NCBI RefSeq assembly: GCF_029016485.1
Contig: NZ_CP092106.1
Span: forward strand, 2,790,001-2,854,000
Direction of reading: 5' to 3'
Source of the DNA: Vibrio sp. JC009
Lineage (GTDB): Bacteria > Pseudomonadota > Gammaproteobacteria > Enterobacterales > Vibrionaceae
DNA: 64,000 nucleotides
In this document: one piece after another, positions 38,891 through 52,287 of the stretch
Layout: the number at the start of each line of letters is the position of its first letter
Numbering within the stretch: the first letter of the stretch is position 1
Notes under the pieces: generated by a model
Seen by the model: the letters and a program-made list of their open reading frames with translations, nothing else
Databases searched by the model: none
Told to the model about the DNA's origin: nothing
Translations under genes and position numbers: made by a program

Positions 38891-38981
38891 AGGGCTATAG
38901 GGTTATGGGGACGGGCTTCGCCCTTAGGGGGTATAGGGAACACCCAAATCAACGCCCCATAGCCCCATAGCCCCATAGCCC
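38891..38981. repeat. Palindromic element with CCCCATAG tandem arms and GGGCGAAGCCC core
   Basis: On the plus strand GGGCTATAGGGTTATGGGG (38892-38910) pairs, with two mismatches over 19 bp, to an array of three CCCCATAG units (38955-38981). Between them lies a small hairpin core, on the minus strand AGGGCGAAGCCCGTCC (38924-38909). A 9-T run borders the left side. The element sits between the zapE stop and the rplM promoter. The same core recurs at 52254-52269 with different arms. Confidence 0.75.
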
Positions 38982-38987
38982 AAAATC

Positions 38988-40091
38988 CTAAACCAAATGC
39001 TCTTTAGCAAGATATTCCCTCCCCTGCATCTCCACCAACCTGGACAAGCAACGCCTGAACTCAAACTCCAGCGATCCGCCGGCGTATAACTCTTCCATTC
39101 CGACTTCAGCAGAAATAATCAGCTTTATATTACGTTCGTAGAACTCATCAATCAGGGCGATAAATCTTCTGGCGGCGTCGTCTGTGGTGGCGTCCATCTG
39201 GATGACTCCTGCGAGCAATACTGTGTGGTAGATGCGGGATATCTCGATATAGTCATTCTGGCTGCGTGCCGACTGACAGAGCTGTTCAAAGCTTGCGTAC
39301 AGCACGCCATCACAGGCTTTTATCACCGGGACTTTCCTGTGGTTAATCTCAACTTCGCTTGCCACCACATGATAGTCAGCGGTTAGTTGAGCATAGTATT
39401 TATTGAGATTATCCGTTGCCGCCTGATCCAGAGGGAAGTGATAGATCTCAGCTTTTTCCAGAGTTCTTAGTCTGTAATCAATACCGCTATCGACATTGAC
39501 CACTTCACAATGCTTTTTGATTAGTTCGATGGCAGGAAGAAAACGCGCCCTTTGAAGACCATTCCGGTAAAGCTCATCCGGGGGGATATTTGAAGTGGCA
39601 ACCAGCACAATGCCACGCTCAAAAAGCGCCTGAAACAGGGTACCTAAAATCATGGCATCGGTAATATCCGAAACGAAAAACTCATCAAAGCAGATGATGT
39701 CAAATTCACGCTTAAAGTTATCAGCCACTTTTTTTAGTGGATCTTCCACATCACCTAACGCAGCTAACTCCTCATGAACCCAGAGCATAAAACGGTGAAA
39801 GTGAACCCGGAAAGCGCGGGGTGTTGTTAGCGAGTCATAGAAGGTATCCATAAGATAAGTCTTGCCACGCCCTACTCCTCCCCAAAGATAAAGTCCCCTG
39901 GGCATCGGATTCTGTTTTGGCTTAACTCTCATCAGGCGCTCAAACAGGCTCAGCTCCGGTGTTTGCAGTGATTCATAATGAACAAGTTCACTATGTAGTT
40001 TATCCAGCTGAAGTACGGCATTTCTCTGAGCTGCATCTTCCTGAAATGCCAGCTCCTTAATATCTGTCTGATACTTTTGTAATGGTGTCAT
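38988..40091 (-). CDS. zapE: Cell division ATPase ZapE (AFG1 family)
   Basis: 367 residues, AAA-like P-loop ATPase. Walker A is GGVGRGKT (71-78) and Walker B DIICFDEF (131-138), followed by the sensor LVATSNIPPDELYRNGLQR. ZapE acts on the Z-ring at late constriction in E. coli. It is divergent from zapG with 148 bp between starts; that gap has a perfect TGTCAT/ATGACA inverted repeat (40160-40177). Confidence 0.95.
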   Translation of the reverse strand: MTPLQKYQTDIKELAFQEDAAQRNAVLQLDKLHSELVHYESLQTPELSLFERLMRVKPKQNPMPRGLYLWGGVGRGKTYLMDTFYDSLTTPRAFRVHFHRFMLWVHEELAALGDVEDPLKKVADNFKREFDIICFDEFFVSDITDAMILGTLFQALFERGIVLVATSNIPPDELYRNGLQRARFLPAIELIKKHCEVVNVDSGIDYRLRTLEKAEIYHFPLDQAATDNLNKYYAQLTADYHVVASEVEINHRKVPVIKACDGVLYASFEQLCQSARSQNDYIEISRIYHTVLLAGVIQMDATTDDAARRFIALIDEFYERNIKLIISAEVGMEELYAGGSLEFEFRRCLSRLVEMQGREYLAKEHLV

Positions 40092-51816: not shown

Positions 51817-51841
51817 CAGGTTGCAGGTTGCAGGTTGCAGG
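51817..51841. repeat. 7-bp tandem repeat CAGGTTG (left block)
   Basis: 3.6 perfect copies of CAGGTTG start at the first base after the tolC stop codon. The array resumes at 52105, on the far side of the inserted 263-bp element. Confidence 0.9.
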
Positions 51842-52104
51842 CTGACTCTCATACACAAATATTAAAGTGGCCTGAGAACGGTTCTCCCCCTTTAGTGAAA
51901 AAGCCTAACTGGTTGATAAAGCTAATAGAAGGGGGAGTTAGAGGGGGTTGGTTATGCCATGCATGGTTAAACCACCAAAACTTAAACCCATGAGAAACAA
52001 CCCCTCCCAGCCTCCCCTTCGATGTTACTTTTTCGAAAATCCGGCCTTTCGAGGCTAAGGGGAGGAGCATTCTTTGGCTCCTTAAACTTGTGTATAAGAG
52101 TCAG
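51842..52104. mobile_element. 263-bp element with 17-bp terminal inverted repeats (MITE-like)
   Basis: The ends CTGACTCTCATACACAA (51842-51858) and TTGTGTATAAGAGTCAG (52088-52104) are inverted repeats matching at 16 of 17 positions. The inside holds no credible gene. It has two further inverted pairs, CTCCCCCTT/AAGGGGGAG in the left half and CTCCCCTT/AAGGGGAG in the right half, so it can fold heavily. It is flanked on both sides by the same 7-bp array, as if it inserted into it. A target duplication cannot be told apart from the array itself. Confidence 0.65.
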
Positions 52105-52182
52105 GGTTGCAGGTTGCAGGTTGCAGGTTGCAGGTTGCAGGTTGCAGGTTGCAGGTTGCAGGTTGCAGGTTGCAGGTTGCAG
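52105..52182. repeat. 7-bp tandem repeat GGTTGCA (right block)
   Basis: About 11 perfect copies over 78 bp, the same unit as at 51817-51841 in another phase. The perfect copy identity suggests slippage and a copy number that may vary between strains. Confidence 0.93.
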
Positions 52183-52186
52183 AATT

Positions 52187-52220
52187 AAAAAGGCTTGAGA
52201 TATAAATCTCAAGCCTTTTT
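52187..52220. terminator. Bidirectional terminator between tolC and hldE
   Basis: AAAAAGGCTTGAGAT and ATCTCAAGCCTTTTT form a perfect 15-bp stem with a 4-nt loop between the convergent genes. T-runs flank it on both strands. Confidence 0.92.
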
Positions 52221-52230
52221 TATGGGAAAA

Positions 52231-52287
52231 CCTGCATTTACCCTGTAACCTGTAGGGCAAAGCCCGTCCTGTCACCTGTAACCTTTA
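52231..52287. repeat. Core hairpin element with CCTGTAACC-type arms
   Basis: The core AGGGCAAAGCCCGTCC (52254-52269) is flanked by CCTGTAACCTGT on the left and TGTCACCTGTAACC on the right. These arms are degenerate antisense versions of the CAGGTTG array on the other side of the terminator. The core matches that of the element at 38891-38981 at 15 of 16 positions. Confidence 0.7.

Follow-up and report, generated by a model that had tools for sequence, protein, structure and literature searches.

Three kinds of repeat described in bacteria come closest to the elements reported here. G-rich heptameric repeats with the units GGGAATC and GGGGAYT have been described in Xanthomonas and Nostoc (Rehm et al. 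2015, PMC4692102). In the excerpted text of that study, the Xanthomonas heptamers often form inverted pairs (70 and 75 cases), and the repeats are mostly intergenic, tend to lie no more than 50 bp from a gene end or start, keep the same gene context in a sister species in 83% of cases with variable copy number, are generally unassociated with mobile elements and show no preference for the leading or lagging strand. REP and BIME elements, according to excerpts of a second study (Di Nocera et al. 2013, PMC3733652), are small GTAG-tagged palindromes situated behind genes, often as inverted pairs. The same excerpts describe CGTC-tagged palindromes, mostly head-to-head dimers without a known dedicated transposase, with stems of 8-9 bp that almost always start with A-T and loops of 4-5 nt. 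For Vibrio cholerae, the excerpted passages of PMC2267715 mention ERIC and one small family.

As far as these partial sources describe them, the elements studied here resemble REP/BIME and the heptameric inverted repeats of Xanthomonas in layout, but they lack the tag and the transposase of REP elements. Two of them lie in the window, the whole 64,000-nucleotide stretch of the Vibrio sp. JC009 genome that was analysed: element 1 in the gap between zapE and rplM, with its core on the minus strand, and element 2 in the gap between tolC and hldE, with a plus-strand core (Table 1). Re-reading of the window confirmed the initial annotation on both places, on the agreement of the two cores at 15 of 16 bases and on their like arrangement. 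Along the core strand, both elements run from a G-rich tandem array through a spacer, a degenerate antisense remnant and the core to antisense units, and the sense arrays face degenerate antisense units that flank the core on both sides. All three perfect tandem arrays detected in the window by script (units of 6-10 bp, at least three copies) fall within these two elements. Folded as single-stranded DNA, each element forms a long stem from which the core protrudes as its own small hairpin, with z scores of -3.4 and -7.8 against shuffles, tandem complementary arms favouring a long stem by construction. An Rfam search of both returned no family at gathering score. Within the window, the two core matches (12-mer, at most one mismatch) are not above chance, that number being reached in 29 of 100 shuffles.

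Table 1. Features of the two window elements (window coordinates) and the copies in rRNA operons (contig C1 coordinates)
Feature	Position	Strand	Remark
Element 1 antisense units right of core	38892..38908	-	minus-strand reading CCATAACCCTATAGCCC
Element 1 core AGGGCGAAGCCCGTCC	38909..38924	-	hairpin GGGC-GAA-GCCC, tail GTCC
Element 1 degenerate antisense remnant, left of core	38925..38938	-	
Element 1 spacer	38939..38953	-	
Element 1 sense array (GGGGCTAT)3.5	38954..38981	-	begins 6 nt past zapE stop codon
zapE	38988..40091	-	gene ending at element 1; locus anchor
Element 2 first part of sense array (GGTTGCA units)	51817..51841	+	immediately past tolC stop codon
263-bp insertion within element 2 array	51842..52104	+	ends CTGACTCTYATACACAA; outside the core family
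Element 2 sense array (GGTTGCA)11.1	52105..52182	+	
Element 2 spacer with terminator-like hairpin and A/T runs	52183..52228	+	
Element 2 antisense remnant AACCTGCA ... CCTGTAACCTGT	52229..52253	+	
Element 2 core AGGGCAAAGCCCGTCC	52254..52269	+	
Element 2 antisense units right of core	52270..52287	+	extend to hldE stop codon
Six rRNA-operon B-type copies	C1 27817, 390644, 396481, 518566, 2992755, 3265991		

The GGTTGCA array after tolC is interrupted by the 263-bp insertion, which the initial annotation did not mention and whose ends we take to resemble the outside end of Tn5. Ends of this kind were also seen in six further JC009 loci (L010, L027, L104, L110, L113 and L114), several of which adjoin array units; the observations suggest that the insertion favours these arrays as targets.

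Searched across the JC009 genome, the 16-bp core gave 94 matches at up to two mismatches, against eight for the reversed pattern, and 46 against none at up to one mismatch, in keeping with the many genomic copies that had been predicted from the window. Ninety-two of the 94 lie on contig C1 and two on the 1.9-Mb contig C2, an imbalance with a binomial P of 9e-16 by length when copies are taken as independent. A looser hairpin pattern matched 126 places in JC009 against 21 for the control; 100 of the 126 places were listed, so the set scored below is incomplete. That set consists of 120 sites, namely the fits to a script pattern in the stretches around the listed sites minus two single look-alikes. 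Among them are tandem copies at 660 kb, a match that is probably due to chance (1011603) and, between 23S and 5S rRNA genes, six copies that are nearly identical.

The core has a stem of 4 bp (GGGC or GGAC) and a loop of 3 nt. At the sole variable stem pair, the 120 sites carry G-C 61 times, A-T 55 times, G-T four times and A-C never, copies being counted as independent and kinship among them ignored. This covariation bears out the small hairpin that had been proposed for the core. The loops are GAA (80 sites), AAA (23), GGA (7), GCA (6) and GTA (4), a class that can be written as GNA or AAA, with the third loop base fixed in the looser pattern, in the 120-site pattern and in the pattern applied to 227 genomes below. 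Where that base was left free, in the search with up to two mismatches, all six matches with a single loop mismatch vary at the middle base (GCA, GGA or GTA). The tails are GTCC at 63 sites, GTTC at 19, GCCC at 16 and others at 22. Hairpins of the C-GNA-G kind are unusually stable DNA mini-hairpins; they include d(GCGAAGC) and the phage N4 promoter hairpins, which form in single-stranded DNA and which the core resembles. In ViennaRNA folds the core strand is hardly favoured over the complementary one (-3.4 vs -3.0 and -4.7 vs -4.8 kcal/mol), and the argument for special stability therefore rests on the general thermodynamics of such hairpins.

Inverted short tandem arms, which the initial annotation expected around further core copies, recur through the genome. 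A script that scanned 320 nt to the left and 150 nt to the right of each core found 42 perfect arrays of at least three copies at 40 of the 120 sites; the background, taken from these stretches at distances above 500 bp from any core, was two arrays in 197 kb. All 42 arrays lie left of the core, and in 40 of them the G-rich strand is also the core strand. JC009 has three dominant unit types, designated A (GGGGCTAT or GGGGTTAT), B (GGGCCCT) and C (GGTTGCA and relatives). Most of the 42 arrays are of type A, the octamers GGGGCTAT and GGGGTTAT being the commonest array units, and one is of type B. Of 100 scored sites, 85 have at least one left sense unit, and hence a pair of arms, and this holds whichever way the left gene points (55 of the 66 sites where a gene ends on that side and 30 of the other 34). 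Thus, the paired-arm form is a property of the element and not an effect of convergent genes. A half-element model, with one arm per stop codon and a palindrome only between convergent genes, was rejected by the same two fractions.

Cores fitting the site pattern occur in both arms in four pairs in JC009. Some elements are mosaics by eye: C2:50727 has a core with A units on its left and C units on its right, and elements 2031587 and 3037766 combine B with A units. Furthermore, a dispersed spacer cassette was identified by motif in 11 A-type copies, which have the array end, the spacer and the first antisense unit in common. The cassette terminates near the core; the right flanks of the 11 copies are unrelated (26% identity), and their cores differ in stem, loop and tail.

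The placement of the elements at gene ends was checked by their distance to stop codons. Of the 120 sites, 37 have a stop codon no more than 60 nt from the left edge (median 6 nt), 61 from the right edge (median 9 nt) and 19 from both. By crude ORF calls, 101 sites are located outside ORFs of at least 70 codons, and the core-side gene has its stop codon facing the core at 75 of these and starts away from it at 23, with no gene at three. The 19 further sites fall inside ORFs of at least 70 codons, many of them possibly spurious. The core lies opposite the GC-skew leading strand at 86 of 119 C1 sites and on it at the other 33 (P = 1.3e-6), the terminus being placed at 1.6 Mb from the skew of the retrieved stretches, a noisy signal in that region. 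The same bias was found between convergent genes (31 of 45, i.e., 31 to 14; P = 0.016), and the replication-strand bias may partly follow gene orientation. The six near-identical copies in rRNA operons are B-type elements (L023, L083, L084, L087, L127 and L133).

The nearest relative among the genomes searched, G116, encodes a ZapE 75% identical to that of JC009, and over 4098 bases its zapE locus matches a Vibrio hannami record (L053) at 100% identity. Among the 30 best ZapE loci, that of JC009 included, an element by eye stands behind zapE in JC009 and G116 and is absent in the other 28. The unit at this locus is GGGGCTAT in JC009 and GGTGACA in G116, and the G116 core is degenerate. Eleven core matches in G116 represent ten elements, nine of them at JC009 element loci. 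Eight of the nine are matched through both flanks, whereas at 1056612 the right flank alone matches. No JC009 partner of the tenth (L226) turned up in the incomplete site set. Together with zapE and 2519896, this makes 11 shared loci. Judged by eye, the unit type differs at nine of the 11, and C-type arms are found in both genomes at 1056612 and 2192739. The loop is identical at all seven shared loci with the same core orientation, including the rarer GTA (693936) and AAA (2519896), with a permutation P of 0.024 in a test chosen post hoc; stems or tails differ at some of these loci. Place and mostly core thus persist in G116 and arm type differs, as one would expect from the earlier proposal of a single family with a kept core and exchangeable arms. 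At three shared loci (116690, 317849 and 2498215) the core lies on the opposite arm, with loops agreeing in one of three, and such pairs require either an ancestral two-core form, like the four pairs in JC009, or independent insertion.

In 400 kb of G116, 18 JC009 loci have an orthologous gap, which holds an element in five cases, an array without core in two and neither in 11. Five of the eight GTTAC/GTGACA-type arrays in the same 400 kb lie at JC009 loci and three elsewhere. The empty gaps and the arrays off JC009 sites indicate frequent gain and loss. G116 has no tolC-hldE element. Among the 30 hldE loci displayed, a degenerate stretch resembling the core follows hldE in G003, and in several genomes a different gene follows it. 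The hldE gene of G116 (L223), like hldE and nif3 of G062, matches in at least two pieces, and assembly errors or frameshifts are possible in these cases. The idea that spacers are surviving ancestral gap DNA was unsupported between JC009 and G116, with one of 11 loci at P < 0.05, and that one matching another palindrome. Arrays also stand alone: an (AGCTCTT)8 array lies right behind a gene end in a joined G116 stretch (352739-352795, L322), with no core seen beside it. A different palindrome type (CTCGTTCCCACGC...GCGTGGGAACGAG) shares several intergenic gaps in JC009 (L012, L024, L095 and L112) as well as G116 gaps.

A survey of the genus with AGGRCNNAGYCCGTYC found matches in 35 of 227 Vibrio genomes, against at most two per genome for the reversed control, and the family has relatives in other Vibrio. 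Ten genomes, JC009 included, contain at least 20 cores (G000, 85; G099, 81; G243, 79; G244, 62; G078, 53; G020, 51; G199, 26; G131, 25; G144, 22; G178, 22). The core is not genus-wide, since 192 of the 227 genomes gave no match. Outside the genus, a narrower pattern gave one match each in four of 368 genomes of the class and none in the rest. The units of the arrays beside the core, given as canonical rotations, are ACGGGTT and ACAGGTT in G116, AACTGGAT and AAAACTGG in G099, AAGCGAG, AAAACTGG and others in G078, AGAGAGCT in G131, and AGAGCTGG, AAGCGAG and AAAACTGG in G144. The unit sets therefore differ between genomes but overlap, AAAACTGG being common to G099, G078 and G144, and AAGCGAG to G078 and G144. 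Several other genomes are also enriched near cores for a second hairpin, GCGNAGC (for example 4.4 vs 0.8 per kb in G020), which is hardly enriched there in JC009 or G116.

The gap between nif3 and gltA was compared in 31 genomes picked by hand and enriched for core-rich ones, 27 of them scorable. Cores or arrays occupy the gap in 14 and are absent in 13, and six array units are found there. Occupied gaps measure 172-622 bp and empty ones 87-158 bp, bar three of 305-345 bp, in which a different palindromic repeat seems to fill the space. Among the four unscored genomes, G244 and G020 have core-like hairpins behind nif3. The nif3-gltA terminator looks alike, by eye, in occupied and empty genomes. 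Of 99 core-bearing loci in other Vibrio, 91 remain distinct after removal of eight duplicates, and 34 of the 91 (37 of 99 before removal) adjoin orthologs of JC009 element-flanking genes, compared with two of the 91 for control window genes. Counted by genes with at least one hit, sharing with other Vibrio is not significant (32 of 203 flanking vs three of 46 control genes; P = 0.16, Fisher's exact test). Another palindrome type (GACGAAGGAAGGAGTAGGGAATCTC ... GATCCCCAACTCGCTCG) fills similar gene-end gaps in loci of G005, G018, G104, G020 and G144.

Set against the described systems, the Vibrio elements have in common with the Xanthomonas heptamers their 7-bp G-rich tandem units (GGTTGCA and GGGCCCT in JC009; GGGTTAC and GGTTACA in G116), inverted pairs and gene-end intergenic location. 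They differ in that the unit type is not shared with the sister species, at nine of the 11 JC009-G116 loci, and in their strand bias, where the excerpts of PMC4692102 report no strand preference. Those excerpts describe neither a shared hairpin core nor a change of unit between species at one locus. From what the partial sources say of REP, BIME and REPIN elements, these too are small tagged palindromes behind genes, with complementary stem changes. They often come as inverted pairs of hairpins; JC009 has paired arms at 85 of 100 scored sites, but cores in both arms in only four pairs. REP/REPIN hairpins have GTAG (or GYAG/GTRG) at their foot. However, none of the 120 JC009 tails is GTAG or its complement, the Vibrio stem is 4 bp long against 5-13 in REP, the arms are tandem units, and JC009 has no Y1 transposase. 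The tail beside the stem is CGTC-like, as in the CGTC-tagged palindromes, but a stem of 4 bp and a loop of 3 nt rule those families out as the excerpts of PMC3733652 define them. In the open-access literature, words for the core, the arms and the second hairpin gave unrelated titles only, with no recognised description of a Vibrio family of kept core and changing arms.

At a probability of about 0.53, we favor the reading that these are REP-like non-coding palindromes of the genus Vibrio with a DNA mini-hairpin as their anchor, and that slippage together with template switching or conversion rewrites their arms within genomes. The family is large, its stems covary, its members lie near stop codons, and JC009 and G116 share places and mostly cores with differing arm units; the process and the enzyme behind arm replacement we infer. 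Each element would be an inverted pair of arms around the 16-base core, sometimes with the core in both arms. The core could form a small hairpin in single-stranded DNA, with a closing C-G pair, a GNA or AAA loop and a G-T-Y-C-like tail, and a putative factor would recognise it in this single-stranded form, which may be why the core is the most conserved part. Replication slippage would lengthen the arrays, and template switching or gene conversion between elements within one genome would replace the arm units. Anchored at the core and at G-runs, such replacement would let the arms of a genome evolve in concert. Conversion between elements was not seen directly, and the two profiles used, Y1_Tnp and RVT_1, disclosed no factor that binds or copies the core. 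The overlap of unit sets between some genomes, and the three of eight G116 arrays at other places, slightly lower the odds of this reading. A chromosome-wide rewriting, in which a conserved mini-hairpin would mark sites behind genes and a candidate enzyme or replication process anchored at it would overwrite both arms with the current units of the genome, is improbable.

Other processes could place or maintain such elements. The positions shared by JC009 and G116 might reflect target choice and not descent, the elements having inserted recurrently and independently into the same hot spots, gene ends by terminators. Element edges near stop codons, the opposite core orientation at three shared loci and the occupation of nif3-gltA in 14 of 27 scorable, hand-picked genomes, distant ones among them, with 13 empty, would all follow from this. 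Yet nine of ten G116 elements lie at JC009 loci, far above the few percent of gene gaps estimated to carry one, the loops match at seven of seven same-orientation loci, the rarer GTA and AAA included (a comparison made post hoc), and C-type arms are common to both genomes at 2192739 and 1056612, and we regard independent insertion as somewhat unlikely. Selection could also keep the elements as 3'-UTR or bidirectional terminator structures, leaving the arms free to change while they pair. By eye, a clear terminator is missing from many A- and B-type spacers, and no element follows zapE at 28 of the 30 best ZapE loci. Rfam offered no family at gathering score. Such a role accords, on the other side, with the adjoining stop codons, the terminator-like hairpins of the C-type spacers inspected, the long-stem folds that beat shuffles (z of -3.4 and -7.8) and the copy between 23S and 5S rRNA genes in six operons; we consider it quite unlikely as the main explanation.

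Mobilisation by a RAYT (Y1 tyrosine transposase), as for REP/REPIN elements, is very unlikely, small gene-end palindromes, some paired inverted hairpins, patchy high copy number and a bias between the replication strands (86 to 33 on C1) notwithstanding. PF01797 (Y1_Tnp) has no match in JC009, in a search whose control was positive in five of 14 genomes. Y1_Tnp is present in 106 of the 227 genomes, but among the ten core-rich ones only in G199 and G243. With eight of the ten, JC009 included, lacking a match, RAYT is not required, and this reading is already refuted for JC009 unless the enzyme was recently lost or is too diverged for PF01797. A reverse transcriptase that adds units from an RNA template, as at telomeres, with a change of template switching the unit genome-wide, would account for 7-8-bp units that recur throughout one genome and are different in another, and RVT_1 is present in JC009 and G116. 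Several unit types coexist in one genome, however, and RVT_1 (PF00078) has no match in five of 11 core-bearing genomes (G099, G131, G020, G178 and G244, with many cores), in four of which (G099, G131, G020 and G178) arrays were seen. RNA templating is thus not required, as far as PF00078 detects, and we give it hardly any weight. The initial annotation attributed arm turnover to slippage. Turnover itself is upheld by the nine of 11 loci that differ, and slippage suits the variation in copy number, from 3 to 28 units. Slippage as the sole cause fails, since a change from GGGTTAC to GGGGCTAT or GGGCCCT in both arms of one locus is left unexplained. Nor could pure in-place slippage of random intergenic DNA yield the same 16-bp core at more than 90 places or exchange both arms together, and as the sole process it is already excluded. 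Because neither RAYT nor RNA templating is required, a DNA process of arm rewriting around the mini-hairpin is favored.

Palindromic repeats and short tandem repeats of bacteria are usually described apart, and here they form one element. The parts of this element differ greatly in evolutionary speed: between two species its place and hairpin are kept, and its arms are exchanged. Two questions become testable with this family, namely how bacterial repeats can spread when no transposase is known for them and how short repeats at dispersed sites come to be homogenised. Were chromosome-wide rewriting true, a hundred or more dispersed satellites would evolve in concert like telomere repeats, without a known transposase or reverse transcriptase. 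The patchy distribution of the elements, with ten of 227 genomes rich in cores and 192 having none, provides a natural design for finding the responsible gene.
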